A stretch of 26,200 bases of DNA, taken from the IMG/VR virus record IMGVR_UViG_3300047472_000080, positions 1 through 26,200 of that record; one strand, written 5' to 3'. Numbering within the stretch: position 1 is the stretch's first letter; every line of letters starts with the position of its first letter. The notes below the pieces were generated by a model that saw nothing but the letters and a program-made list of their open reading frames with translations, was not told the DNA's origin and ran no database searches. A program made the translations under genes and the position numbers. Source of the stretch: a virus. Shown here piece by piece: positions 2,975-26,200 of this stretch.

Positions 2975-5104
2975 TTGACCCTGATGTCGAGGGCTCTTCC
3001 GGCCCTCTACAACGGCGTCTCGCAACAGCCCCCGATCCTTCGCTCGCCTGACCAGAACGAGGCCGAAGAGAACACTTGGGCCGAGCTGGCGACCGGCGTG
3101 GGCAAGCGCCCGCCTTCTGAGATGGTCGCGCAGATCGCGATCAACATTCCCGACGACGTGTTCGTCCACCACATCAACCGTGACGCGACCGAGCGGTACG
3201 TCCTGCTCATCTCGAACGGGAACATCCGCCTCTTCGATCACGCCACCGCAACCCAGCGGATCGTCAACGCCCCTGCCGGGCTCGACTACATCAACACCTC
3301 GGGTGCCAACCTGCGGGCCGTCACGGTGGCCGACTTCACGTTCATCGTGAACACCTCCAAGACACCCTCGTTGCTCCCTGTGGGCGCCGACATCGTGGCC
3401 CAGCCGGACTATTACCGCTCCCTCGGGCGCGCTGATGGTGGTGGCTCGGTCTACCAGTACCCGACCAATCCGAACCCCGGTCAGTTCATGGGCGAGCTGG
3501 CGTCGATGGAGAAGCTCCCAGACGTCGCGTCCGATGGCGACACCTACCGGATCGTCGGCAGCTCCTCCGAGAGCTTCGCGAGCTACTATGTGCGCCGCTC
3601 AGGTGCCGTGTGGGATGAGACGATCAAGGCCGGGCTGCAAAACGCGCTCGACCCCCTGACGATGCCCCACTGCCTCGTTCGCGAGGCTGACGGCTCCTTC
3701 ACGTTCGTGCCCTTCTCGTGGGCTCCGCGCCGGGTCGGGGATGAAACCTCGAACCCCGCCGCGAGCTTCGTGGGCCGCGCGATCCGCGACGTCTTCTTCG
3801 ATCAGAACCGCCTCGCCTTTTTGGTCGACGAGAACACCGTGCTGAGCTGCGCGGGCGACTTCGGCAACTTCTGGCGGAACACCGTGCTGGACTACCTCGA
3901 CGACGACGTGATCGACGTGGCGGTGACCGGCAACAGCGTGTCCGTGCTGAACTATGCGCTGCCGTTCAACGACGGCGTGATGCTCTTTGCCGACCAGACC
4001 CAGTTCTCCATGACGAATGGCGAGAACGGCCTGACGCCCAGCTCCATCGCGATCCGGCCCGCGACATACTACGAGGTCAACACGCGGGTCCGCCCGGTGA
4101 CCATCGGGACCGAGGTCTACTTCTGCGGCGACCAAGGGGCCTCCTCGGTCGTCTGGGAATACACCCGCCTGTCCGATAACGACGCCACCTCGGCGGCCGA
4201 GATCACGGCGCACGTCCCCACCTACGTCCCCAAGGGGATCGCTCAGCTGGTCGCCGCGCCAAACCTCAAGGCCCTCTTCGCGCTCACCGGGGGCACCGAC
4301 ATCTACGTCTACCAGTTCTACTGGAGCGGAAATGAGAAGGTGCAATCCTCGTGGCGCCGCTGGCGGATGCCGATGCCGGTCATCTCGGCCGCGTATCTGG
4401 ACAACCACCTGTACCTCGTCACGCGGCGCGGGAACGGCGTGTTCCTCGAACGCATCGACCTGTCGAAGCAGCCGCTCCCTCGGGTTCTGCTGGATCGCCA
4501 GAAGGTGTCTGCGGGCGTCTATGACAGCGCGCGGGATCGCACCGGCTTCATCTTCAACGAGGTGCTGGATCAGGCGAACACCCAGATCGTCCGAGGCTGG
4601 AACCACCCGACCCGTCCTCACTCCCTGATCGATCCCACGGGATACAGCTGGGAGGCTGAGAACTTCGTCACGGTGCCCGGCAACGAGACGGGTGCGCCTG
4701 TGACGGCAGGTGAGCCCTATGTGATGCGCCTGACGTTCTCTCGCCAGTTCGCGCAGAACTACCGCTCGCAGCCGATCACGACCGGCCGCCTGCAGCTGCG
4801 GACCTTCACGGTCTACTTCGCTGACACGGCCTTCTTCCGCACCGAGGTGTCCCCTTACGGCGCCGCAGTGGCCCCCGGCGTCGAGCCTGTGGTTGCAGCG
4901 AAGCTGGCTGACTTCACCGGCAAGGTGGTTGGCGACGAGGAGCTGCGCCTGAACCGCCCCGTCTACACGACCGGAAGCTACAGCTTTCAGGTCTACGGCG
5001 AGGCATCGCAGGCGACCATCGCCATCTCGAACGACACCCACGTTCAGTCGACCTTCGTGTCGGCCGAGTGGGAGGGCTTCTACTTCAACCGGGCATCTGG
5101 ATGA
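2975..5104 (+). CDS. Tail tubular protein B, nozzle (T7 gp12-like)
   Basis: This 709-residue protein is the hexameric tail nozzle of T7-like phages. The N-terminus MTLMSRALPALYNGVSQQP, then LRSPDQNEAEENTWAEL and GKRPPSE, aligns with the T7 gp12 start (MALISQSIKNLKGGISQQP...KRPP). That alignment favours TTG at 2975 over ATG at 2984, and GGAGAT lies upstream at suitable spacing. The protein is beta-rich, with no signal peptide or membrane segment, and is somewhat shorter than T7 gp12 (794). Its stop TGA overlaps the start of the next gene (ATGA), indicating coupled translation. Confidence 0.94.
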   Translation: MTLMSRALPALYNGVSQQPPILRSPDQNEAEENTWAELATGVGKRPPSEMVAQIAINIPDDVFVHHINRDATERYVLLISNGNIRLFDHATATQRIVNAPAGLDYINTSGANLRAVTVADFTFIVNTSKTPSLLPVGADIVAQPDYYRSLGRADGGGSVYQYPTNPNPGQFMGELASMEKLPDVASDGDTYRIVGSSSESFASYYVRRSGAVWDETIKAGLQNALDPLTMPHCLVREADGSFTFVPFSWAPRRVGDETSNPAASFVGRAIRDVFFDQNRLAFLVDENTVLSCAGDFGNFWRNTVLDYLDDDVIDVAVTGNSVSVLNYALPFNDGVMLFADQTQFSMTNGENGLTPSSIAIRPATYYEVNTRVRPVTIGTEVYFCGDQGASSVVWEYTRLSDNDATSAAEITAHVPTYVPKGIAQLVAAPNLKALFALTGGTDIYVYQFYWSGNEKVQSSWRRWRMPMPVISAAYLDNHLYLVTRRGNGVFLERIDLSKQPLPRVLLDRQKVSAGVYDSARDRTGFIFNEVLDQANTQIVRGWNHPTRPHSLIDPTGYSWEAENFVTVPGNETGAPVTAGEPYVMRLTFSRQFAQNYRSQPITTGRLQLRTFTVYFADTAFFRTEVSPYGAAVAPGVEPVVAAKLADFTGKVVGDEELRLNRPVYTTGSYSFQVYGEASQATIAISNDTHVQSTFVSAEWEGFYFNRASG

Positions 5105-5586
5105 TAACAGTTCACGACCTCCATCACGTCGAACCCGGCGTGGTCGAGGCGTGGGCTGGAACCCTATCTGCAGGTCTACGGCGCTGCGACCTCGACGAGA
5201 TCGAGGCCATGGCGTCGGTTGCGCCGGAGCGAGCCCTAGGAGCTTCTCTGGCATTGTCCTCCCACGCCTATGCGGTGCTGGACAGGACCGGGGAGCCGGT
5301 TGCCATGTTTGGTGCCGCTCCCCACCCCCTCCCCGGCGTCGGCATTGTCTGGATGCTGGGGACTGATGGGATCGACCGCGAGGCCCATGCCATCGCGCGC
5401 AAGACCCGCCGCTATTTCACCGAGCTGACCGAGGCATACCCTGTGGCGCTCTGGAACTTCATCGACGCTCGAAACACCAAGTCCATGCGCTGGCTGCGCT
5501 GGGGTGGCTTTCGAATGATCGGGGAAACCGCCCTTGGCCCTGACGGCCATCCCTTCCACATATTCGCGAGGTCTGCCCTTGTGTGA
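5101..5586 (+). CDS. Internal virion protein A, GNAT-like (T7 gp13-like)
   Basis: This 161-residue protein occupies the position of T7 gp13, between the nozzle gene and the gp14-like gene. Its sequence has a GNAT acetyltransferase cast. VWMLGTDGIDREAHAIARKTRRYF (about 84-107) resembles the beta4/alpha3 acetyl-CoA-binding area, and NFIDARNTKSMRWLRWGGF (about 120-138) resembles the conserved N-x-x-A-x-x-x-Y-x-x-x-GF segment. Related GNAT-like proteins occur at this locus in many T7-like phages and are annotated as internal virion or acetyltransferase-like proteins. Whether it is catalytically active cannot be judged. The ATG at 5101 overlaps the previous stop. Confidence 0.8.
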   Translation: MITVHDLHHVEPGVVEAWAGTLSAGLRRCDLDEIEAMASVAPERALGASLALSSHAYAVLDRTGEPVAMFGAAPHPLPGVGIVWMLGTDGIDREAHAIARKTRRYFTELTEAYPVALWNFIDARNTKSMRWLRWGGFRMIGETALGPDGHPFHIFARSALV

Positions 5587-6088
5587 CCCCATTACCGCTG
5601 CGGTCGTCGCGGGTGTGACGATGGTGGCCTCTACCGGGGCCAGCATTGTCGCCCAAGCCAAGACGGCCAAGGCGCAGACAAAGGCCCTCGCCACGCAGGC
5701 GCAGGCCAACACCGTCGAGATCAAGCAGGCCGCCAGCGGCGAGCTGTTCGACGAGATGCGCGCTTCCCGGCGCGAGCAGGCGCGAGTTCGCGCCGCAGCC
5801 GGTGAGGCTGGCCTCTCCCTTGAGAGCGGCTCCATTGAAGGTCTGCTGTTCGACAGCGCGCAGCAGGGCAACCTGCAGGGCGGTCGCACGCTCGCCAACA
5901 TGGAGAGCCGCTTCGCCTCGAACGACGCCGCCACTGCCAGCGCCGCGTCCCAAATCCAGAAGCCGACCATCCTTGGCGCCGGTCTGCAACTCGCTGCGGC
6001 GGGCGCATCGGCATGGTCCGGTGTGCAGAGCGCCAAGATCGGTGTCGCCACCTCCAAGGCCACAGCGGCCAAGTCCGTAGGAGCCTAG
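5579..6088 (+). CDS. Internal virion protein B (T7 gp14-like)
   Basis: This 169-residue protein resembles T7 gp14 in length, Ala/Gln-rich helical composition and N-terminus. Translation from TTG at 5579 gives MCDPITAAVVAGVTMVAST, paralleling the MCW... start and hydrophobic first segment of T7 gp14. A GAGG motif lies eight bases upstream of this TTG; no ATG gives that N-terminus. Later, VRAAAGEAGLSLESGSIEGLLFD matches the gp14 pattern IRAAIGESMLEGSSMDRI. The protein is ejected with the DNA and forms the outer-membrane part of the ejection channel in T7. It overlaps the preceding gene by eight bases. Confidence 0.88.
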   Translation: MCDPITAAVVAGVTMVASTGASIVAQAKTAKAQTKALATQAQANTVEIKQAASGELFDEMRASRREQARVRAAAGEAGLSLESGSIEGLLFDSAQQGNLQGGRTLANMESRFASNDAATASAASQIQKPTILGAGLQLAAAGASAWSGVQSAKIGVATSKATAAKSVGA

Positions 6089-6089
6089 C

Positions 6090-7703
6090 ATGGCCGACCT
6101 TTCCCGCCTCGACGCGCGCACGTCGCAGCAGGATCGCATCACGAACAACCGTGACGGCGTCCTGCCCAGCCGCCGCAACACCGAGGCACCGAACCTCCAA
6201 GTCAACGGCGATCTCCGCAACGCCCGTCGTGGCGAAGGTGGAGCTGCCGAACTCCTGCGCGTCCTCGGTGGCGTGTCAAAAGCCGCCCAGGCGGTGGGCT
6301 CGGTCATGCAAGACCGGCAGGAGATCAAGGACAAGGAAGAGGCCCGCGCGGACGTTGACAACGCCTCGCAAGACACCCTCAACGGAACCTTCGACGCCGA
6401 GAAGATGGCCCACAGCACGGCCTATCGGACGTGGCGGATAAAGGGTGACGTAGAGGCCCGCGTGGCTGGCGTCACGACCTCTATCGAAGATGACATCGAG
6501 AAGTTCACCTCGTCCGATGAGGACGGCCTGTGGACCACCGAGGACATCGACGGGATCATCAAGGGTCACTTCAAGAACCTCGTGACGGACGAGAATGGCC
6601 AGCCCCGCGCTGACTATCTCGACAGCCCCGAGGCTCGGAAGATCATCACCGACAAGCTGAACGACCTTCGTCCGAAGTTCCTGCAGCAGGCCCATGACTT
6701 CATGGTCAAGCAGACCCGCGAGCGCGACACCAACTTGGCGGTCGCCGGACTGATCGGGAAGACGGAGCCCAAGGGCGCCTACGATCTCGATGGGTTCATG
6801 CAGGGCCTGCCGCCCCAGATCAACAAGGCCGACGCGCTCGAAGCTGCGATGACGGGCGTTCTCGCCCACGCCGAAGCCCACGAGAACGTCGAGGGCCTTC
6901 AGGCTCTGCTGGCGGGCACCAAGGCGGACGGCAAGACGCCTCTGCTCGGCTACCGGGACGCAGCGCGCCTGCAGTCTGCGATCCCCCAGATCGAGGCTCA
7001 GCGCGAGCGCCGGATCGATAAGGAGCAGAAGGATCGCTACGAGGCGAACGCCGACAACGTCTACAAGATGTTCGACGCGGGCAAGCCTCCCAGCATCGCC
7101 ACGATCCGGCAGCTGGTCGCGGAGGACAAGCTCGATCCGCGTACCGGCCGCACCTTCCAGAACTTCATCGAGAGCGATGCGCGCGAAGCGCGTTCGGAGG
7201 CCCGCGCAGACCGTGCGGAAGCCCGAGCGAACTATCGGGACACCGTCGAGATGAACGTGGCCCAGAAGGTGATCTCGTGGTCGTCCGGTATGGGTCCGAT
7301 GGACCCCAAGCAGTTCGGCGCAGAGATCGACAAGCTGCGGAAGTCCGGCTCGATTGGTGAAGGCGCGATGGGCGCGAGCAACATGCTCCAGCTCAACAAC
7401 GCTTGGAAGGCCGGGCGTCAGCTCGTCGCCTCCCAGCCGATGGTCAAGACCTTCGCCACTGCCATCGACAAGAGCTTCGCCGCTCCCAAGTCGGGCGTGG
7501 CAGCAGCCTACGGCAAAGGCGCCGACCCCTACGCCGCAGCGGCGGCCAAGCAGGATTACCTCGACCTCGTCACGACGGGGAAGATGAACCCGGCTCAGGC
7601 CTACGCGAAGGTCATGAAGGATCACGGCAAGGCCGTGGCGAACCAGACCCCCGACCTCAACGCAATGGAGGCACGCCTGAAGGCGCTCGCCGCGAAACGA
7701 TAA
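6090..7703 (+). CDS. Internal virion protein C (T7 gp15-like)
   Basis: This 537-residue, predominantly helical, highly charged protein lies in the T7 gene 15 position. TAGGAG precedes the ATG. No catalytic motif or membrane segment is visible. A KEQKDRYEANADNVYKMFDAG segment and the repeated Arg/Glu/Ala stretch around 365-385 suggest long helices, in keeping with the periplasmic tube formed by gp15 in T7. It is shorter than T7 gp15 (about 747). Assignment rests mainly on position and composition, because this family diverges fast. Confidence 0.75.
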   Translation: MADLSRLDARTSQQDRITNNRDGVLPSRRNTEAPNLQVNGDLRNARRGEGGAAELLRVLGGVSKAAQAVGSVMQDRQEIKDKEEARADVDNASQDTLNGTFDAEKMAHSTAYRTWRIKGDVEARVAGVTTSIEDDIEKFTSSDEDGLWTTEDIDGIIKGHFKNLVTDENGQPRADYLDSPEARKIITDKLNDLRPKFLQQAHDFMVKQTRERDTNLAVAGLIGKTEPKGAYDLDGFMQGLPPQINKADALEAAMTGVLAHAEAHENVEGLQALLAGTKADGKTPLLGYRDAARLQSAIPQIEAQRERRIDKEQKDRYEANADNVYKMFDAGKPPSIATIRQLVAEDKLDPRTGRTFQNFIESDAREARSEARADRAEARANYRDTVEMNVAQKVISWSSGMGPMDPKQFGAEIDKLRKSGSIGEGAMGASNMLQLNNAWKAGRQLVASQPMVKTFATAIDKSFAAPKSGVAAAYGKGADPYAAAAAKQDYLDLVTTGKMNPAQAYAKVMKDHGKAVANQTPDLNAMEARLKALAAKR

Positions 7704-7713
7704 GGAGACTGCG

Positions 7714-10700
7714 GTGGCTTTGACCGCTGACGAAGAACGCGAGTACCAGCAGCTTTCGAAGCAGCTCGCGCAGATGAAGGCCCAGCAGGACGGCGACCGT
7801 CGCCTTGCCGAAGCCCGCGCACAGCGTCCGGCCGCCGCAGCAGCCCCTACCTCCAGCTTCTCCATCTGGCGCGCTGGCCTCGGCGCAGTCCGAGAAGCCG
7901 CACAGGGCGCAATGGATACCGTCGATGATCTCGCGACCGCCGCAGGGCGCGCCACGGGCATCGGCGGCATTGCCTTCGGCTCCCACGCCAAGAACGGTGT
8001 GGTCGAGTACCAAGGCTACGACGAGTTCAACAAGCGCGGCGGTGACGCCGTGTTCGGTGCGAAGCCTGCCGGGGGAGCAAAGCCCAGCGAGCGCACCAAC
8101 TACCAGCTACCCAAGCCGAACGGCTACGATAGCGCAGGCACAGCCGAGAAGATCACCCGCGACATCGGCGCGTTCGTCGTCCCCTTCGTGGGATGGTCGA
8201 AGGCCGTGGGCGCGACCAAGGCGGCAACCCTGCTGGGCCGAGCATCGCGCTCGGTCATGGCGGGATCGCTCGTCAACTTCACCACCTCACATCCGGTCGA
8301 GAACAACCTCGCGACGATGCTCAAGACCTCCTTCGGGTTCGACAACGCCGCCCTCAACAGCGTGGCTGCGTCCGATGACGACGACCAGCTGACGGCCCGC
8401 GTGAAGAGCGTGGTGTCCAACCTGCCGCTCGACGTGGCCGGTGAGGCCGTGATGGAAGGTGCCACGCATGCTGCTCGCATGTACCGCGCCGTCCGCAACG
8501 GCTCGCAGGAAGCCAAGGATGCCGTGAAGGCCGTGCAGGACGACCTCGTCGTCAAGCGCACGGTCGACAAGACGCGCACCGAGATGGCTGGGAAGACCGG
8601 CGTCCGCGTGAACGGCGTCGACCCGCTCGCACCGAAGGGGCCTACCCCAAAGGCTGCGAATGACGTCGTGACGCCGGAAGGCGTCCTGTCTCCCGCGAAG
8701 CCCAAGCCGGAAGCCTCCAAGGCACCAGAGGAGGTTCCGGGTGGAGCCGCACCAGCTGCGCCTGCCGCGCCGACCGATCCCAAGATGGTGACCGTCCCGG
8801 CCGATCAGGTGAAGCCGAAGCGCATCGAGACGATGGACGATTTCACCCAGTTCATCTCCCAGACCCTGAAGGCGGTCCCTGCGGATCAGCCCGAGCGGCT
8901 CGACAAGCTGGCGAAGGCCATCATGGAGAACCCGCACAACGCGCTGGACGAGCTGGGGATCGACCCCCTCAAGCTGAACTACGAGCTGTTCGAAGACCCG
9001 GCGAAGATCGAAGCGATGCAGAACAGCCTCGCCTCGGTGGTCGACGAGATCGCCCAGAAGACCGGCCGCACTGGCATCCGCGTATCGAACGCAGAGACGG
9101 TCCAGACCGGGCGCATGCTCGGCGTTGCACCGGAGAACCTGCAGAAGGTCGTGCAGCAGACGAAGGGCCTCGCGGGTCGCCTGACCGGCGCTCGTGTCCT
9201 CGTCGGCCAGCACGCGCACAAGCTCGTTGCTGACGTCGATGCCGCTATCGCGGAGCTGGCGTCCGGCAAGGGCGCGGGCAAGGCCTACAACGAGTTCGTC
9301 CACACGCTCACCCGTCACGCCACCCTGCTCGGCACCCTCCGGGGCGCTGGGTCCGAGATCGGCCGTGCCCTGCAGTCCCTGCAGATCACGATGGAGATCA
9401 AGGGTGCAGGCAAGACGCTGCAGGAGCAGGCTGAGGCCGCACTGGAGAAGGCACGCGCCGCAGCTGCCAAGGATGCCCAGCGGGCCGCCGCGAAGACCGC
9501 CAAGGTCGACGAGAAGGCGGCAGCGAAGGAAGCCAAGGCCGCCGCACGCACGGTCGATCCGACCTCGCCGGAAGCGACGAAGTTCCTCTCGGAGCTGGCG
9601 AACGAGCGCATGGACGAAGCGTCCCTGCAGGCTCTCGTCGACAAGCATGGCATCTCTGCTGAGCGCGTCACGAAGCAGCTCGGTGTGGATTGGAAGTCGG
9701 TCAAGAAGCTGAACGACGCGAACGCCCGCTACGACGACCTGTTCAAGGACGTCTCGACGGATGCCGGGAAGCTGCGCCTGCTGAACCAGCTGAAGAATGC
9801 CAAGGGTGACCTTGAGCAGCTTCGCCGGATCACCCTGACGCGGAACCTCGGGTTCCTGAAGCGCGCCGACGCCATCGTGGGAGAGACGCGGGGCAACCTG
9901 TTCTCGCTCGGCACCGCCGCCATGAACGTCATGGGCGCTGGCGCGATCATGGGCATCAAGTCCATGTCGCATACGCTGGCCACCATCGGTCATGCCGCTG
10001 CGTCGCCCTTCAGCGCACGTCAGGCCGAGCTGGCCGGGCAACACGCCCTTCAGCTCTGGGCTTCCGTCCATGCCCCTGTGAGTGCCTTTGGCGATGCCAT
10101 GGCGAACACTTGGGCTGTCCTGAAGCACGACAGCCTGCAGGAAGCGTCTGTGCTGGCCGACACGGCCGGTTGGAAGACCGCCGCTACCAAGGCGCAGGCA
10201 GCTGCCATTCGTGCCCAGAGCGGCATTGAGCGGGGCCTGATCCGTGAGGAAGTGGACCGAGGCGCGGCGTGGATGGTTCATCCCGAGACGCTTCAGGCCA
10301 TGTCCGACCAGATCGAGAAGTTCCCCATCGGCAAGTTCGGCCACATGGGGCTGCAGTGGATGATGCGCGCAGGTGCAACCGGGGTGAACCTCGGGGGCTC
10401 CCTGACCCGCATGTCGACCTCGGCGCTCATCAACGCTCCCGACCAGTTCGCTGGGACGCTCGCGGCTCGCGCCGGGGCGCACTCGGCGGCGATCTCGCAG
10501 GCGGCCGAAGAGGCAGCGGAAGCTGGCCTCAAGGGCACCGACCTGTTCTCCTACGTCAAGCAGCGCGCGTTCGATCTCGCAGACGGCATCGACGGCATCA
10601 GTGATGAGCCGTTCGAAGACGGCATGCGGGAAGTCCTCTCGAAGGAGGGGCACGACTACGCCAAGACCACGCTGTTCCAAGACGAGTTCGACACTGAAGG

Positions 10701-11922
10701 CATGAAGCGGTTCTCGGGCGTCATGTCCTCGATCCCATTCATGTCGCTCTTCACGCCGTTCGTCCGCACTCCGCTCCGCATCTTGGAGCAGACCGCCCTC
10801 GACTACACGCCCTTTGGTCTTCTCAAGAAGTCCGTGCGGGATGCGTGGCTGGAGGCGGACCCTGTGAAGCAGGGCGAGATCGCGGCGCGCATGACGATGT
10901 CGATGTCGATGTTCTTCGGCGCCTACATGCTGGCGGACAGCCGCAACATCGTGGGCTTCGACGGCGGCAACCGCAGCTCGGCACGCCTCGACCGCGCCTC
11001 CTACTCCTTGCGGGTCGGTGGCGATGTCTGGGAGTACAACCGGCTCGATCCCTTCGGCACCGTTCTCGGCCTCGCGGCTGACCTTCGGCAAGCCCTCACG
11101 GCTGTCGAGGACAGCTCGGACGACGATCTCGTCTCGGGCGCCGGTCACCTGCTGGAAGCCAGCCTGTGGTCGGTCTTCCACAACGTCCTCAACAAGACGT
11201 GGATGACGGGCTTCAAGCAGATCAACGACGTCGTCAGCGACCCCACGGTCGAAGGCGGCATGCGTAAGATGGCTGGGATGTTCTCCTCTCTGGCGACCCG
11301 CGCGGTCCCGGCGTCGGGCATCCAGCGGCAGTTCGATAAGTGGGACACGGGCTACGTCCGTGAAGCACAAGGGTTCGCTGAGGGGCTCCTGAAGTCCTCT
11401 TGGGGTGCCTCGACGCTGCCGGTTAAGCGCGACACGCTGCTCGGCCGCCCGGTCGACATGACCACGGGCGAGCGCATGATCGGTGTGAAGGCGGGACCGG
11501 AAACGGTCGATCCGCTGGAGCGCGAGCTGGACACCCTGTCGTTCGACATCCCTGCTCCGAAGACGAAGCTGAAGGGCGTCTCCCTGAACTCCACGCAGAT
11601 CAGCCGCTGGCTGGAGCTGCGCGGTCAGGTGACGAAGGACAGCACCGGCATGACGCTGGACGAGAAGCTGAACGACCTCATCAAGCAACCCGGATACCTG
11701 GCCCTCGGGCACAATGGCCGGGTTGATGCCGTGAAGTCGGCCATGTCTGGCTACAACCAGCTGGCAACAAACCAGCTCCTGCGGGAAGACAAGAAGTTCG
11801 CCTACGCAGTCCTTCGGGCCGAGACGTGGGATGAATACAAGTCGCAGGACAAGTCGCGTGCGGAAGCGGACGCGGCTACTCTTAAACTCGCACAGGAGCT
11901 TGGCATCACGCCTTCTGAATGA
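7714..11922 (+). CDS. Internal virion protein D, giant core protein (T7 gp16-like)
   Basis: At 1402 residues this is the largest protein, matching T7 gp16 (about 1318) in size and position directly before the tail fibre. It starts with GTG at 7714 behind AAGGAG. T7 gp16 carries an N-terminal lytic transglycosylase; here the N-terminus (MALTADEEREYQQLSKQLAQ) is coiled-coil-like and no transglycosylase motif is visible. Residues about 275-360 are a Pro/Ala/Lys-rich linker, and about 575-620 an Ala/Lys-rich charged helix. Several hydrophobic helices in the second half (for example around 725-750) fit an inner-membrane channel role. How peptidoglycan is breached during entry is therefore open. 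Confidence 0.85.
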   Translation: MALTADEEREYQQLSKQLAQMKAQQDGDRRLAEARAQRPAAAAAPTSSFSIWRAGLGAVREAAQGAMDTVDDLATAAGRATGIGGIAFGSHAKNGVVEYQGYDEFNKRGGDAVFGAKPAGGAKPSERTNYQLPKPNGYDSAGTAEKITRDIGAFVVPFVGWSKAVGATKAATLLGRASRSVMAGSLVNFTTSHPVENNLATMLKTSFGFDNAALNSVAASDDDDQLTARVKSVVSNLPLDVAGEAVMEGATHAARMYRAVRNGSQEAKDAVKAVQDDLVVKRTVDKTRTEMAGKTGVRVNGVDPLAPKGPTPKAANDVVTPEGVLSPAKPKPEASKAPEEVPGGAAPAAPAAPTDPKMVTVPADQVKPKRIETMDDFTQFISQTLKAVPADQPERLDKLAKAIMENPHNALDELGIDPLKLNYELFEDPAKIEAMQNSLASVVDEIAQKTGRTGIRVSNAETVQTGRMLGVAPENLQKVVQQTKGLAGRLTGARVLVGQHAHKLVADVDAAIAELASGKGAGKAYNEFVHTLTRHATLLGTLRGAGSEIGRALQSLQITMEIKGAGKTLQEQAEAALEKARAAAAKDAQRAAAKTAKVDEKAAAKEAKAAARTVDPTSPEATKFLSELANERMDEASLQALVDKHGISAERVTKQLGVDWKSVKKLNDANARYDDLFKDVSTDAGKLRLLNQLKNAKGDLEQLRRITLTRNLGFLKRADAIVGETRGNLFSLGTAAMNVMGAGAIMGIKSMSHTLATIGHAAASPFSARQAELAGQHALQLWASVHAPVSAFGDAMANTWAVLKHDSLQEASVLADTAGWKTAATKAQAAAIRAQSGIERGLIREEVDRGAAWMVHPETLQAMSDQIEKFPIGKFGHMGLQWMMRAGATGVNLGGSLTRMSTSALINAPDQFAGTLAARAGAHSAAISQAAEEAAEAGLKGTDLFSYVKQRAFDLADGIDGISDEPFEDGMREVLSKEGHDYAKTTLFQDEFDTEGMKRFSGVMSSIPFMSLFTPFVRTPLRILEQTALDYTPFGLLKKSVRDAWLEADPVKQGEIAARMTMSMSMFFGAYMLADSRNIVGFDGGNRSSARLDRASYSLRVGGDVWEYNRLDPFGTVLGLAADLRQALTAVEDSSDDDLVSGAGHLLEASLWSVFHNVLNKTWMTGFKQINDVVSDPTVEGGMRKMAGMFSSLATRAVPASGIQRQFDKWDTGYVREAQGFAEGLLKSSWGASTLPVKRDTLLGRPVDMTTGERMIGVKAGPETVDPLERELDTLSFDIPAPKTKLKGVSLNSTQISRWLELRGQVTKDSTGMTLDEKLNDLIKQPGYLALGHNGRVDAVKSAMSGYNQLATNQLLREDKKFAYAVLRAETWDEYKSQDKSRAEADAATLKLAQELGITPSE

Positions 11923-18056: not shown

Positions 18057-19778
18057 TTGAACTCCCGAGACATTCTCCGGGGGGACTTCCTGAAGTTCCT
18101 CTGGTTCGTCTGGACCCGGCTGCTGCTGCTGCCTGCGCCCACACGGATACAGCTCGACATCGCCCGCTTCCTGCAGGGTGGTCCGAAGCGCCGCTTCATC
18201 CAAGCCTTCCGAGGGGTCGGCAAGACCTTCCTCACCGCCGCCTATGTGGTCTGGCGGCTCTGGAACAACCCCGACCTGAAGATCATGATCGTGTCGGCCA
18301 ACGAGGCCTTCGCGACCGAGATCGCCTCCTTCATCAAGCAGATCATCGACCACGAGGTTGGTGACGACCTCTGGGCCGAGCTGCGTGCCCGCACGGGCCA
18401 GCGACAGTCCGCCCTGATCTTCGACGTGGGACCGGCCAAGGCCGACAAGTCCCCTTCGGTGAAGGCGGTCGGCATCACCGGCCAGCTCACCGGCTCCCGC
18501 GCCGACCTCGTCATCTCTGACGACGTTGAGGTGCCTAAGAACTCCGAGACGGAAACCATGCGCGAGAAGCTCGTGCAGAAGACCGCTGAGTACGCGGCTA
18601 TCCTGAAGCCGGGCGGCGAGATCATCTACCTCGGCACCCCGCAGAGCGAGCAGTCCATCTACCGGGCTCTCCCTGAGAAGGGCTATCAGGTCCGCGTCTG
18701 GCCCGCCCGCTATCCCCTGAAGGAGAAGCTGGCGAACTATGGCGGGTTCCTCGCGCCCCTCCTCATGGCAGACATCGCCGCGAACGAGGCCCTGCAGAAG
18801 CCCGAGGGTTCCACCTTGGGTGGCGCCGTCACCGATCCCAACCGCTTCAACGACCTAGACCTGATCGAGCGTGAGACGGAGTATCGGGGCGCGGGCTTCC
18901 TCCTGCAGTACCAGCTCGACACGACCCTGTCGGACGCCGAGCGTTACCCGCTCAAGACCCGCGACCTCATCGTCATGGACGTCGACCGCAAGGTTGCCCC
19001 CGGCCGAGTGGTCTGGGGCAGCTCACCTGAGCTGGCGATCAAGGACATCGAGAACATTGGCTTCGACGGCGACCGGCTCTTCCGGCCCATGCACGTCTCC
19101 TCGGAGTTCCTGCCCTACACCGGGGCTGCGATGCACATCGATCCCTCCGGCCGTGGTCGGGACAAGACCACCTATGTGGTCACCAAGTTCATCGCCGGGT
19201 TCATCTATGTGACCCGCTGGGGTGGCTTTCAGGACGGCTATGGGAAGGAGACGCTCGCGGCTCTCGCCCAGATCGCTGCCGAGGAAGAGGTCAACATCAT
19301 CGTCCCCGAGGACAACTTCGGTGACGGCATGTTCGGCAAGCTGCTCGAGCCCTACGTCAACGCCATCCGACCATGTCGGGTAGAAGGCGTCAAATCGAAG
19401 GGCCAGAAGGAAGTCCGCATCATCGGCACCTTGGAGCCCGTCATCCGCCAGCATCGTCTGGTGGTGGACGCCAACGTCTGCCGAGCGGACCTCAAGCTCC
19501 CTGCAGTCCACTCAGGGCTGTACCAGCTGACCCACATGACCTCCGCGCGTGGTGCCCTCAAGCATGACGACATGGTCGACGTCCTGGCCCTCGGGGTCGG
19601 ACACTGGGTCGACTACCTCAACGCCGATGCCCTCAAGGCAGAGCAGGAGCGCAAGGCTCGGTTCGATGCCGACTTCGAGCGCAAGCTGTTCGCCTCAACG
19701 GTCTTCGGGGCTCACCTCAAGAAGCCCTCAAGTCTGTCCGCACGGAGAGGCCGAGGGAGAGCCGTGGGGAGGCGATAA
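18057..19778 (+). CDS. Large terminase subunit (T7 gp19-like)
   Basis: This 573-residue packaging ATPase/nuclease starts with TTG at 18057 behind AAAGGAG; the T7 family start and reading frame both support it. Walker A is FRGVGKT (about 51-57) and a Walker B-like strand is ADLVISDDVE (about 149-158), the T7-type arrangement. The C-terminal nuclease has an acidic metal site at HIDPSGRGRDKTTYVV (Asp about 362) and another at KHDDMVDVLALGVG (about 500-510). It translocates DNA into the procapsid and cuts the concatemer. In T7 this is the last major gene before the right genome end, which matters for reading what follows here. Confidence 0.95.
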   Translation: MNSRDILRGDFLKFLWFVWTRLLLLPAPTRIQLDIARFLQGGPKRRFIQAFRGVGKTFLTAAYVVWRLWNNPDLKIMIVSANEAFATEIASFIKQIIDHEVGDDLWAELRARTGQRQSALIFDVGPAKADKSPSVKAVGITGQLTGSRADLVISDDVEVPKNSETETMREKLVQKTAEYAAILKPGGEIIYLGTPQSEQSIYRALPEKGYQVRVWPARYPLKEKLANYGGFLAPLLMADIAANEALQKPEGSTLGGAVTDPNRFNDLDLIERETEYRGAGFLLQYQLDTTLSDAERYPLKTRDLIVMDVDRKVAPGRVVWGSSPELAIKDIENIGFDGDRLFRPMHVSSEFLPYTGAAMHIDPSGRGRDKTTYVVTKFIAGFIYVTRWGGFQDGYGKETLAALAQIAAEEEVNIIVPEDNFGDGMFGKLLEPYVNAIRPCRVEGVKSKGQKEVRIIGTLEPVIRQHRLVVDANVCRADLKLPAVHSGLYQLTHMTSARGALKHDDMVDVLALGVGHWVDYLNADALKAEQERKARFDADFERKLFASTVFGAHLKKPSSLSARRGRGRAVGRR

Positions 19779-21005: not shown

Positions 21006-21776
21006 ATGTTCCAGATCAATCCTGCCCTAGAGCCCGCACCCGCCGACATCGGCAAGGCAAACGGCGTCATCCTGTATCGCGGCCCTTCCAAGCTTGACGG
21101 GGCGCCGATTGTGGTGGTGGCAACCGGGCTCGCAAGGGGGAGCCGCAACGCTAAGACCGGCGCAATGGTGCAAACGTATATCCTGCGGGATGACATGCAC
21201 CCTATCGACGCGGTGCGGAGCGGCGCCGACGTTTCCATCTGCGGGACGTGTCCGCATCGCGGTGACGGGACGGGCAAGGGCCGCAGCTGCTACGTCACCC
21301 TAGCGCACGGCCCGCGCTCCGTTTGGGAAGGGCTGAAGCGGGGCATCTACCCTCGCGTTGACGCCTTCACGGCCCGCGCTCTCTTCGCTGGCAAGATGGT
21401 GCGTCTCGGCACCTACGGTGATCCTGCGGCGGCACCTAGGGCGCTCTGGAAGGTAGCCCTGAAGGACGCTGCGGGCTGGACCGGCTACACTCACCAATGG
21501 CGCACGGTGGAGTCGGAATGGGCCGCCCTAGTCATGGCGTCGGCCGATAGCGTGGCGGATATGGATGCGGCGCACGCTGCGGGCTGGCGGACGTTTCGCG
21601 TCACTGCGGAGCCCTTGGCGAACCTGAAGGGCCGCGAAGTCGTCTGCCCTGCCAGCGAGGAAGCCGGGAAGCGCACGGATTGCGCCAGCTGCAAGGCGTG
21701 CATGGGCACGGCAGGCAAGGCCCGCGTTTCGATCCAGATCGCAGCGCACGGCGGCGGCAAGCGTCACGTTCAATAG
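21006..21776 (+). CDS. Cysteine-cluster phage protein of unknown function
   Basis: This 256-residue protein is the largest early gene. It has two cysteine groups: C79-x2-C82 with C95 (SICGTCPHR...SCYV), and C214 with C226-x2-C229-x2-C232 (VVCPASEE...CASCKAC), suggesting zinc or iron-sulphur binding. Other marked motifs are NAKTGAMVQTYILRDDMHPIDAV, VRLGTYGDPAA and GWTGYTHQWR. From memory, proteins with these motifs occur in diverse phages and plasmids as a family of unknown function; I cannot confirm the family name. GAGGGAG precedes the ATG by about six bases. An enzymatic role acting on nucleic acid or metabolites is possible but unproven. Confidence 0.85.
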   Translation: MFQINPALEPAPADIGKANGVILYRGPSKLDGAPIVVVATGLARGSRNAKTGAMVQTYILRDDMHPIDAVRSGADVSICGTCPHRGDGTGKGRSCYVTLAHGPRSVWEGLKRGIYPRVDAFTARALFAGKMVRLGTYGDPAAAPRALWKVALKDAAGWTGYTHQWRTVESEWAALVMASADSVADMDAAHAAGWRTFRVTAEPLANLKGREVVCPASEEAGKRTDCASCKACMGTAGKARVSIQIAAHGGGKRHVQ

Positions 21777-23485: not shown

Positions 23486-24005
23486 GCGCACCTATCCGAT
23501 GATGCAGCGCCTCCTGCTGCACCCTGAACTGTTCGACCGCGAGAGCCTGCGGGTGACCGGCGCTCAGCTGGTCGACGGGCATTGCATCCCGGTCGCCAAT
23601 GACTGCGCCGAGGGCGTCATCTGGTCGGTCGTCGCGACCACCTCCAGCGGCCACACGGTGACCGTCGCGGACTGCGACACGATGCCTGCTGCAGGTGCGT
23701 TGGTTCGGCGCCTGCGCCGGTTCACCTCAATGGTCACCGGGGCGGACCTGATCGACGCTGCGGCGTGCCTTTGGGAGGCTGCGCTTGAGCTGAAGGGCTC
23801 CCCGCTGATCGCCCCGGCCATCGAGCGTTTTGGCACGGCCGAGGTTCGCACCGCAGTCGTCCGCCACGCTGCCGTCTGCCACCTCCAGTGGGTCGAGGCG
23901 GTCGAGGAAAGCGGGTACGATGACGCCTTCGATTGGGAGTGGTGCCCGAAGTTCCTGACCGAGCGATTGGATTGGTCAGCGGGCCTACCCTTTCTTAAGG
24001 TTTAG
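23472..24005 (+). CDS. Early protein of unknown function
   Basis: This 177-residue protein (MTTCERTYPMMQRLLLHPELFDRE...) is the last gene of the small-gene block. AAGGAG precedes the ATG. The first half looks beta-rich (VIWSVVATTSSGHTVTVADCDTM). The second half is helical (TGADLIDAAACLWEAALELKG, VRTAVVRHAAVCHLQWVEAVEE) with an acidic Trp-rich end. Cysteines are scattered, without a metal-binding pattern. No family is recognised. Confidence 0.75.
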   Translation: MTTCERTYPMMQRLLLHPELFDRESLRVTGAQLVDGHCIPVANDCAEGVIWSVVATTSSGHTVTVADCDTMPAAGALVRRLRRFTSMVTGADLIDAAACLWEAALELKGSPLIAPAIERFGTAEVRTAVVRHAAVCHLQWVEAVEESGYDDAFDWEWCPKFLTERLDWSAGLPFLKV

Positions 24006-24185
24006 AACTCGTTAACGTTTGTAGTGGTAACGTAGCGTTGTGTTGCACGAATGTTACGACGCTACGGAGAGCGGGGGCTCTCAATCTCCGGGCTTGCAAT
24101 GTAGGATTTCGTTTGTTCTAGCATTGTTCGCTTCGGGGTCGTCCAACGCACACCGGGGGTATTAACGGATGGTTAGGCACTGGAC

Positions 24186-24204
24186 ACGGAACGATCAGTT
24201 CCGT
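24186..24204. promoter_or_regulatory. 19-bp palindromic operator candidate
   Basis: ACGGAAC-GATCA-GTTCCGT is a perfect inverted repeat with seven-base arms, about 100 bp upstream of the MarR-like gene. MarR-type dimers bind palindromes of this length, so autoregulation is a natural inference. Its right arm overlaps the asymmetric operator-like copy at 24197. Confidence 0.6.
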
Positions 24205-24216
24205 TAGAGGGACATT
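24197..24216 (+). promoter_or_regulatory. Degenerate operator-like site upstream of regulator
   Basis: AGTTCCGTTAGAGGGAC matches the 20-base consensus at 14 of 20 positions, strongest in AGTTCC and TAGA. It shares the right arm of the 19-bp palindrome. This is the weakest of the plus-strand copies. Confidence 0.4.
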
Positions 24217-24304
24217 GTGACTATGGGAAGTTTCGGTCGGTGGTCGGTGCAGGGCGCTTCGGCGAAGTGCAGCGTCGGCATGGCAACAAGCGTGGAGGTG
24301 GACT

Positions 24305-24766
24305 ATGCTCGCGATGGAAAACGCAAAAGCGAAGACAGGGGCGAAGCGAATGACAGGGGGAACGACGAGGTCGAAGAGCGACCCGCTTTTCAAGCACGTA
24401 GGCGCGTTGGCCGACTTTTCTTCGGCGCTGATCTCCCTTGCTCAAGCGGCGCCGGATCGGATGACGATGTCACAAGGCGTCTTCTTCCTTCTCGCGGCAG
24501 GTGCTGACCTCGCGGGCAGGCCAACCACATTCACGGAAATCCGTGAGACGGCCGGGCCGAGCATCAATCGCAGCATGCACACCACCTACAAGGTACTGCT
24601 GGACGAGCCGTTAGAGCGCGTTGATGCACCTCGGCAGAAGTGCCTCGGCTGGCTCCAGCGCCACACAAACCCACTGAACGGTCGGGAGAAGTTCCTGACG
24701 CTCACCCCGAAGGGCCGCGAGATCATCCGCGAAGTCCTCTCGGCAATCACCGGAGAAAACCTCTGA
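24305..24766 (+). CDS. MarR-like winged-helix regulator
   Basis: This 153-residue protein has a basic N-terminal arm (about 1-25), a helical segment (30-50) and a winged helix-turn-helix. The HTH is about 55-100 (MSQGVFFLLAAGADLAGRP, TFTEIRETAGPSINRSMHTTY). A wing about 118-133 (QRHTNPLNGREKFLTLTPKG) carries the MarR-style 'L-T-x-K-G-R' ending. GGAGG seven bases upstream supports ATG at 24305. Its stop overlaps the integrase start (TGATG), so the two are co-translated. It is the best candidate for the lysogeny repressor or an integration regulator in this window. No DNA-binding specificity can be read directly. Confidence 0.72.
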   Translation: MLAMENAKAKTGAKRMTGGTTRSKSDPLFKHVGALADFSSALISLAQAAPDRMTMSQGVFFLLAAGADLAGRPTTFTEIRETAGPSINRSMHTTYKVLLDEPLERVDAPRQKCLGWLQRHTNPLNGREKFLTLTPKGREIIREVLSAITGENL

Positions 24767-26052
24767 TGGCTGACATCAAGACCAAGCCGAACGGCATTCA
24801 TTATCTCGAGGTGCGCGTGCCGGGGCCGGACGGCGCCCTCAAGCGCCAGCGCATATCCTGCGACACCCGCGACATGGACGAGGCGAAGCAGCAGAAGGGC
24901 CTGTGGCTCGCTGGCCTGCACCCTCAGCACCCCGCGCAGGGCGGCGTCGTCGCACCCAAGAGGCGCGGCCATGTCGGCAACAGTTCCACTGGACAGATAG
25001 TGCGTCAAACGGAAGGCGGCCTCACGGTCGAGCAGCTGATGACGCGCTGCCTGACGGAACGGAAGGTCTGGGGCGCGTGCCGCGCGAAGCGCACCCATGA
25101 GAGCAACGTCCGCATCATCGCCCGCATGCTGCCGACCAAGCTGCCGCTGGCAGAGCTGTCGACCCAGCACGTCAAAGACCTGAGCGCCGCGATGGCCGAG
25201 GCGGGCTACGCTGACGCATCCCAGAGGAAGCTGCTGGGCTCCCTGTCGGCCGCCTGCCGGTTCGCTGAGGACGAGGGCCTGATCCTGAGCCGCCCGCGCT
25301 TCCCCTCGATCCGCGTGGAGAACGTGCAGGACCGCGTCGTGAGCCTCGACGAAGAGGACGCCATGCTGGCTTGCATCGACGCCCGCATCGACGCTGAGCC
25401 GCTCCGCGCTTGGTGGGCCTTCAAGCAGCTGGTCGTCCTGCTGCTCGACACGGGCTTCCGGCTGGGCGAGGGCCTGCAGTGCGGGCCGTCGAGCGTGAAG
25501 CGCAAGCGGTGGCTGGATCACCGTGGCCGGGCCAGCGAGGGGACGTGGCTGGGCCTCCAGCGCGGCACCACCAAGAACATGAAGCCGCGCGACGTGCCCT
25601 GCACCCAGCGTGTCCTTCAGCTACTCCCAAAGCTGAACGAGCGGGCCGCTGGCGGGCGCTGGTTTCCGTGGCCGCTGGGCTCGTCGGGTCCGCTCTATCT
25701 CCTGCAGTGCATCCGGCAGGATATGGCGGCCAAGGGCTTCGCGTTCGAGGACGTCAAGCTGCACACCTTCCGGCACACCTGCGCTACCCGGCTGGCCGAG
25801 GGCGGGATGGATTTGGTGTCCCTGCGGGATTGGCTGGGGCACTCGGACATCAAGATCACGGCGGCCCGCTACGTCCACCTGATGAACGGCCACATCTATC
25901 GCGGGGCTGCGATCCTAGATGTCTATGGACCCGGTCACTCAATTGGAGCAGATGCGGGAAATGAGGACGAGGAAGAGACTAACCACTCCACTGGAAATAC
26001 TCTGTCTAATGGAAGGGATCGTGGCGAGCCTGTCACGATGGGTGTCTGCTAA
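24766..26052 (+). CDS. Tyrosine recombinase integrase
   Basis: This 428-residue integrase has an N-terminal arm-binding-like beta domain (1-50: KPNGIHYLEVRVPG, KRQRISCDTRD), a variable linker (about 52-85), a core-binding SAM-like domain (about 86-175) and the catalytic domain. Catalytic residues fit the family: R232 (DTGFRLGEGL), K270 (TTKNMK), H333 and R336 (HTFRHTCATRL), H359 (WLGHSD) and nucleophile Y369 (ARYVHL). A 59-residue tail follows Y369; its last part is Asn/Glu/Gly-rich and AT-richer, and may not be conserved. The start overlaps the regulator stop. An operator-like site lies within the linker codons. It would integrate the circularised phage at a host attB. Confidence 0.93.
   Translation: MADIKTKPNGIHYLEVRVPGPDGALKRQRISCDTRDMDEAKQQKGLWLAGLHPQHPAQGGVVAPKRRGHVGNSSTGQIVRQTEGGLTVEQLMTRCLTERKVWGACRAKRTHESNVRIIARMLPTKLPLAELSTQHVKDLSAAMAEAGYADASQRKLLGSLSAACRFAEDEGLILSRPRFPSIRVENVQDRVVSLDEEDAMLACIDARIDAEPLRAWWAFKQLVVLLLDTGFRLGEGLQCGPSSVKRKRWLDHRGRASEGTWLGLQRGTTKNMKPRDVPCTQRVLQLLPKLNERAAGGRWFPWPLGSSGPLYLLQCIRQDMAAKGFAFEDVKLHTFRHTCATRLAEGGMDLVSLRDWLGHSDIKITAARYVHLMNGHIYRGAAILDVYGPGHSIGADAGNEDEEETNHSTGNTLSNGRDRGEPVTMGVC
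24982..25001 (+). promoter_or_regulatory. Operator-like site inside integrase gene
   Basis: This copy matches the 20-base consensus at 17 of 20 positions and encodes residues 72-78 (NSSTGQI) in the low-constraint linker of the integrase. Its occurrence where codons are free to vary supports selection for the DNA site. Confidence 0.55.
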
Positions 26053-26137
26053 GTGCCTGAAATCATTGGGGCACGTCCCCTCACCCGCTCCATTATCCGA
26101 CAAAATCCGGTGGCTGCGAGGGCGATCCTTGGGCTAG
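25919..26137 (+). CDS. Possible small gene overlapping the integrase 3' end
   Basis: In a second + frame this 72-residue reading frame (MSMDPVTQLEQMREMRTRKRL...) overlaps the last 134 bases of the integrase gene and extends 85 bases beyond. It looks protein-like: a helical start, a hydrophobic helix (LEILCLMEGIVASLSRWVSA) and a basic end. No Shine-Dalgarno is visible before either ATG (25919, 25925). It could be a real overlapping gene or chance. Confidence 0.3.
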   Translation: MSMDPVTQLEQMREMRTRKRLTTPLEILCLMEGIVASLSRWVSAKCLKSLGHVPSPAPLSDKIRWLRGRSLG

Positions 26138-26200
26138 GCTGCGGGGCCGTTGGCCCGGACTACGTCGGGCCGCTTCCCGTCGTAACCTAGCACTGGAAAT
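25989..26200 (+). repeat. Direct repeat CACTGGAAAT at 25989 and 26191
   Basis: The ten bases CACTGGAAAT occur at 25989-25998 and again at 26191-26200, where the window ends. The first copy runs straight into the inverted operator-like site, so the second may be a further copy cut by the window edge. A GGCCCG/CGGGCC hairpin (26152-26171) lies between. The attachment site is expected close to the integrase, so these repeats could also be att-associated. Confidence 0.4.
25997..26016 (-). promoter_or_regulatory. Inverted operator-like site at integrase 3' end
   Basis: Read on the minus strand, TTCCATTAGACAGAGT matches the core of the consensus (15 of 20 over the full length). A second partial copy (ATTTCCAGTGG on the minus strand) abuts it, 18 bp out of register. 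This is the only orientation change among the well-matched copies. Confidence 0.45.

Follow-up and report, generated by a model that had tools for sequence, protein, structure and literature searches.

Gene Organization of the Window

The stretch of DNA analyzed here (the window) covers 26.2 kb, positions 1 to 26,200 of the virus record IMGVR_UViG_3300047472_000080. Its structural genes and a cassette of a regulator gene and an integrase gene (int) are all encoded on the plus strand. The following features were recognized:

2975–5104, plus strand: nozzle gene, T7-type structural gene (Pfam)
18057–19778, plus strand: T7-type terminase large subunit gene, terL (Pfam, PHROG); last gene of the structural module, preceding the cassette in prophage order
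21006–21776, plus strand: phrog_2554 gene (E 3.4e-84), conserved early-region gene of unassigned function
24186–24204: 19-bp palindrome (sequence); operator status unsupported
24305–24766, plus strand: MarR-fold winged-helix regulator, 153 amino acids (sequence, profile, AlphaFold model)
24766–26052, plus strand: tyrosine integrase, 428 amino acids (Pfam, PHROG, alignment)
26076–26092, plus strand: att core TCCCCTCACCCGCTCCA, corresponding to the 3' end of a sphingomonad tRNA-Gly(CCC)
26093–26200: DNA past the putative prophage end (attR side), probably host DNA, with no arm sites of the type found in relatives

The terminase and nozzle genes agree with the assignment to a T7-type phage which had been made from the sequence alone. 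The phrog_2554 gene lies between terL and the cassette in phages of the S2B, jiawei and window types.

Properties of the Integrase and the Regulator

Tyrosine recombinases possess the catalytic set R..K..HxxR..H..Y. In the integrase of the window R232, K270, H333, R336, H359 and Y369 are all in place, and these residues are invariant in an alignment of four integrase sequences. The core domain was recognized by the Pfam family Phage_integrase (E 1.1e-12) and by the PHROG integrase profile (E 2.9e-38). The protein thus combines the core domain with the full catalytic set that the sequence-only reading had claimed for it. The same reading had described a TGATG overlap and a MarR-type wing, and both were found. 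The stop codon TGA of the regulator gene (24764–24766) shares base 24766 with the ATG of int, and a Shine-Dalgarno sequence, GGAGGT, is located at 24294–24299 ahead of the regulator ATG.

A Pfam scan of the regulator yielded no family above the cut-off (HTH_27, 12.6 bits versus 22.2 required); in its family 4 of 7 members gave Pfam matches at E ≤ 0.1, the best at 6.5e-4. The profile phrog_9665 ("transcriptional regulator") matched 17 of 19 family members. When the family profile was compared with the PDB, MarR-family chains ranked first (2a61, E 1.5e-6). The AlphaFold model of the monomer, calculated from 19 sequences, had a pLDDT of 86.6. It contains helices at residues 27–48, 55–69, 76–86 and 91–98, strands at 117–121 and 129–133 and a last helix at 135–149, where the helices of the monomer model end. 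This is the order α1-α2-α3-α4-wing-α5 of the MarR core. MarR proteins form dimers by way of their N- and C-terminal helices. The best structural alignment was obtained with 2a61 (Z 10.9, rmsd 2.6, 108 residues aligned), followed by MepR and E. coli MarR. Foldseek returned no match of the model in the PDB at E ≤ 0.001, with MarR-type proteins in the first rows, and five matches at E ≤ 0.001 among viral structures, the first three of them named MarR-type or MarR. As judged from the model, the regulator has a MarR-type fold. A shared MarR fold is no proof of repression, and the protein may be a repressor, a role that we call putative. A search for the regulator in 385 alphaproteobacterial genomes gave matches in 38 of them, a strong one in G002 only; most of the others look like matches to the common MarR wing.

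Conservation of the Gene Pair among Viral Loci

The 25 viral loci examined were the best of 80 obtained out of 152 confirmed ones. Because several of the 25 seem to be near-copies of each other (L059/L060/L061; L064/L065/L066/L070; L058, which equals L002), all counts refer to loci and not to independent phages. Two further loci, L073 and L071, look like the prophages of Caulobacter sp. D5 and of G1144, respectively. In 22 of the 25 best loci int is immediately preceded by the regulator gene; L068 and L070 start too near int to show it, and L078 gave no regulator hit. Conservation of the pair in other T7-like phages and prophages, a point raised by the sequence-only reading, was thereby observed, and the pair also occurs in integrated prophages. 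The stop/start overlap of the two genes recurs in at least eight relatives (L007, L008, L056, L057, L062, L063, L074 and L076). The next gene after int is that of the phage RNA polymerase (RNAP) in 16 of the 25 loci; in the other nine the end of the locus, a tRNA or non-RNAP DNA comes soon after int. The window itself ends 148 nt past int.

In four of 14 listed upstream regions (1.5 kb each; L067 and L183 partial) a second winged-helix protein of 96–108 amino acids is encoded one gene upstream of the regulator, namely in L007 (9044–9361), L063 (5001–5324), L056 (4707–5030) and L075 (5171–5458). The last three copies are 29–33% identical to that of L007. Such a gene was not seen in the visible part of the window. 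In Caulobacter phage S2B one other weak helix-turn-helix match was found among 32 non-structural proteins scanned.

As a separate observation, int in L055 is followed by DNA (7284–8673) whose opposite strand, judged by eye, resembles a urocanase-like gene of bacteria, so that L055, an IMG/VR contig, probably represents an integrated prophage as well.

Integration Site and Related Prophages

Nine alphaproteobacterial genomes carry an integrase or RNAP of this type (G001, G002, G003, G004, G005, G470, G909, G1144 and G1145). Five of the nine resolve an att pair:

Caulobacter sp. D5: 19 nt, tRNA-Ser(CGA)
Novosphingobium lindaniclasticum: 13 nt, tRNA-Pro(GGG), on two contigs
Sphingomonadaceae remnant: 14 nt, tRNA-Ser(CGA)
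G470: 14 nt, tRNA-Gly(CCC)
G1144: 15 nt, tRNA-Ser(CGA)

In all five RNAP adjoins one att site and int the other, and attP consequently lies between int and RNAP. Among the unresolved genomes G003 and G005 gave no RNAP, G909 no repeat of at least 12 nt, and G1145 neither int nor terL nor a repeat. Partial RNAP-like hits (34–38%) were obtained in G808 and G873.

The duplicated core of G470, TCACCCGCTCCAGA, holds 12 nt that are identical to window positions 26081–26092 and was placed in a tRNA-Gly by ARAGORN. The pattern TTCRANYCCCYTCACCCGCTCCA occurs in 41 of 59 genomes of the family of G470. ARAGORN was applied to 10 of the 12 returned loci with this pattern and identified nine tRNA-Gly(CCC) and one tRNA-Gly(TCC). 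G450 carries TTCGATTCCCCTCACCCGCTCCA, which matches window positions 26076–26092 with 17/17 identity and belongs to a tRNA-Gly(CCC), and L056 shares the 18-mer 26075–26092 with the window at the same position. Judged by these sequence matches, the att core at 26076–26092 is identical to the 3' end of a sphingomonad tRNA-Gly(CCC) and marks the predicted integration site. The host of the phage is probably a sphingomonad bacterium. A search with the window tail (26079–26200) against 199 genomes gave no match.

Other candidates for the target were rejected. A first guess for the acceptor stem, GTCCCCYYACCCGCTCCA, was in the wrong register (0 of 60 hits), and TTCRANYCNNNNCCGCTCCA was present in 4 of 142 genomes with a tRNA at none of the four loci according to ARAGORN. 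A looser tRNA pattern matched 54 of 298; the tRNA-Gly was then seen in the G470 prophage.

Two of the prophages show irregularities. The RNAP gene of G470 (L181, 1724–4243) contains one in-frame TGA, and this prophage, the closest one in a tRNA-Gly, may be defective. In L009 (7931–10516) a prophage remnant lies between duplicated tRNA-Ser ends. Here a single open reading frame encodes RNAP up to about residue 723 joined to a C-terminal portion of int. An internal deletion between both prophage ends would give such a fusion.

Putative Arm Sites and the End of the Window

The hexamer TGGCRC (either strand) is concentrated around the att core and in the DNA that follows it, as far as the RNAP leader. 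Of 12 loci tested, eight have no other 300-bp segment as rich in the motif; the concentration is weaker in L002 (19 of 2018 segments reach it), S2B (40 of 4460) and L068 (34 of 616), and L076 shows no such concentration. The motif was chosen after viewing the same regions, and these counts are descriptive. Upstream of the regulator TGGCRC is rare, except in phage jiawei. On the RNAP side of all five resolved prophages, one to four such sites lie no more than 250 bp from the core.

TGGCRC is shared by the relatives of the window type and by S2B and jiawei although the predicted recognition helix of the regulator differs. Since the motif is common to phages with divergent regulator recognition helices, this pattern suggests integrase arm sites, which we prefer over regulator operators.

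All seven close relatives which continue into RNAP have two to four TGGCRC sites at about +70 to +149 after int. The window and L056 have none at +70 to +149, and a single site, at +140, is present on the int side of G470. Because arm sites are absent where the seven relatives have two to four, the last 108 bases of the window probably belong to the host, and the window is probably a prophage fragment that includes the end next to int.

Palindrome and Operator Search

The sequence-only reading had proposed a 19-bp palindrome upstream of the regulator as a site of operator type. The palindrome exists at 24186–24204 (ACGGAAC-5-GTTCCGT). Its reading as an operator was not supported, as such repeats occur at chance level and this one is not conserved in relatives, with half-sites in L055 only. 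In a test for inverted repeats with perfect 7-bp arms and a spacing of 0–8, the window contained 19 such repeats versus an average of 24 in 10 first-order Markov shuffles. For the 299-bp region upstream of the regulator at least one such repeat appeared in 6% of 500 shuffles. MarR proteins typically bind a palindromic operator near their own promoter; for the regulator of the window such binding may still occur, but this palindrome gives no support for it.

An unbiased scan for 7–9-mers in 12 upstream regions detected nothing above 200 random draws. A half-site picked by eye, TGTAGGAAA, was dropped because only four of 15 loci had it in their upstream region, either exactly or with one mismatch. 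A sigma70 scan of positions 23900–26200 yielded no promoter. A phage-type promoter was also considered for a AATTAACCCTCACCCTCGGGGG-like stretch before RNAP in several relatives and is not put forward, as related patterns did not recur ahead of other S2B and jiawei genes.

Between int and RNAP a short hairpin with paired changes was noticed by eye at one and the same position in L002 (about 11469–11484), L059, L063 and L075 (GGGTGTG/CACACCC, GGGATG/CATCCC, GGCTG/CAGCC). The RNAP mRNA may carry it at its 5' end.

Proposed Lysogeny Switch and Alternatives

T7-type phages have long been taken as strictly lytic. On balance we regard it as probable that the regulator and the integrase together constitute a lysogeny cassette, carried by a temperate phage that is T7-like (Autographiviridae-type) and has a sphingomonad-like host. 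This cassette would keep RNAP silent by repression combined with disconnection. In the phage form of these viruses regulator, int, att and RNAP are arranged one after the other in a single direction. Starting from the observed order of regulator and int, the att sites, the MarR fold and the integrase, the transcription and repression steps that we infer would be the following. Early in infection the host RNA polymerase would transcribe the early genes, the regulator, int and, through att, RNAP. The MarR-type protein would act as lysogeny repressor near early or RNAP promoters. Int would then integrate the phage and thereby move RNAP to the far prophage end, which would interrupt the read-through in cis and leave RNAP remote from the early promoters. 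Repression and disconnection together would keep RNAP off in the prophage. Excision would rejoin RNAP with the early operon. The separation is suggested by the position of attP between int and RNAP in five of five resolvable prophages. If integration indeed removes RNAP from the early promoters, lysogeny of T7-like phages would need much less repressor machinery than that of lambda. The regulator is a putative repressor, and the searches for an operator identified none. One argument against this role is that the regulator, as a member of the int operon, would silence its own synthesis by repressing the operon's promoter.

In a more specific version, which we put forward only tentatively, integration itself is part of the switch: with attP inside the rightward early operon, insertion would at the same time cut off from its early promoters the one gene that T7-type lytic growth requires, RNAP. 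The MarR-type protein would then guard only those promoters that remain in the short leader between attL and RNAP, and these may also be dampened by Int occupying the TGGCRC arm. In mycobacteriophage BPs attP reportedly lies inside the repressor gene, while in the present clade the site follows int and precedes RNAP. Integration-dependent immunity, in which the location of attP ties integration to the switch, is described for BPs (PMC4557955). The accessible literature on T7-like lysogeny yielded no statement that integration separates RNAP from the early promoters; Boeckman 2022 may state it.

We consider it rather unlikely that the main task of the regulator is to assist Int in recombination, as a directionality or accessory factor, perhaps with an additional transcriptional role like Apl of phage 186. 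Translational coupling would then set the ratio of Int to its partner, and regulator and int are indeed tightly coupled in most loci. No excisionase family appeared among the Pfam hits of the 32 non-structural S2B proteins, regulator included, and the TGGCRC array in the attP arm would suit such a partner. Precedents are Apl and the winged-helix directionality factor RdfS. The T7-like Desulfovibrio phage ProddE (MZ666938; L208), like relatives of the window, has its integrase gene upstream of RNAP. It differs in that a CI-type repressor gene (4867–5637) lies exactly between int and RNAP, no MarR gene is annotated beside int and a separate excisionase is annotated. This comparison also fits the main proposal above. 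Against a pure recombination partner, the MarR fold and phrog_9665 point to transcription, and the occurrence of TGGCRC in phages with divergent regulator helices suggests binding by the integrase.

Integration without true lysogeny, the regulator tuning early transcription only, appears unlikely to an even greater degree. T7-like cyanophages are described with an att site after int, integration without stable lysogeny, as for S-TIP37, and no recognized repressor (PMC8776855), and stable lysogens of phage LUZ100 were likewise not obtained (PMC10134795). However, the cyanophages have no repressor homologue, whereas the phages studied here carry the MarR-type gene. Moreover, integration is heritable, since prophages with att duplications are present in cultured or assembled alphaproteobacteria. 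That the true repressor is another gene, such as the second winged-helix protein of L007, L063, L056 and L075, is the least probable explanation, as this gene was found in only four of 14 upstream regions and the int-linked regulator is the conserved one.

The clade offers a compact, conserved cassette, a tRNA-Gly gene of a common kind as its defined att site, and prophages in genomes of Caulobacter and Novosphingobium, and the repressor, directionality factor and disconnection hypotheses are separable in it by simple genetics.

Comparison with Known Systems

The MarR-int-RNAP cassette and the idea of its repressor are already in print for LUZ100 (PMC10134795; OP329100). There, MarR and int are co-transcribed from the host promoter P3, with the terminator T4 after int; MarR is proposed as repressor, and read-through into RNAP together with a phage promoter is proposed to start lytic growth. 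LUZ100 resembles the window phage in being T7-like, with a MarR-type gene upstream of a tyrosine integrase gene; in LUZ100 the two are co-transcribed and RNAP comes next, an order also seen in relatives of the window. LUZ100 differs in its short MarR gene (330 bp), in the mapped elements P3, T4 and phage promoter phi1, and in a tRNA-Leu between MarR and int, and because of the latter the att position is not uniform among these phages. A tblastn search with the window regulator against LUZ100 gave no hit at E ≤ 1. The cassette of the window is a new, divergent member of those already published for LUZ100 and others. New here are the tRNA-Gly att core, the location of att between int and RNAP in all five resolvable prophages and the TGGCRC arm array.

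More distant arrangements were found in other phages. In Rhizobium phage Pasto (MT708545) a helix-turn-helix gene overlaps int, and in both Pasto and Mesorhizobium phage Lo5R7ANS a tRNA-Leu lies between int and RNAP. In contrast to the window type, several genes separate int from RNAP in these two, and the integrase match covers 57–65% of the query at 27–29% identity. Pelagiphage HTVC019P and roseophage CRP-361 have the annotated order (MarR) regulator-integrase-RNAP, but their regulators are short and 18–26% identical, and their hosts are marine.

Among named phages, Caulobacter phage S2B (MN857473) and "Mycobacterium phage jiawei" (OR464703) come nearest to the window, with TerL identities of 65–67%. 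Their integrases are 30–37% and their regulators 22–28% identical to those of the window, and the order is again regulator-int-RNAP. Unlike here, the regulator is annotated as hypothetical, and the records do not show these phages to be temperate. Phage jiawei (L004, OR464703.1) is labelled with M. smegmatis as host, while it is most closely related to phages of Caulobacter and sphingomonads and its TerL is 67% identical to that of the window. From these sequence relationships, the host label of jiawei looks doubtful.
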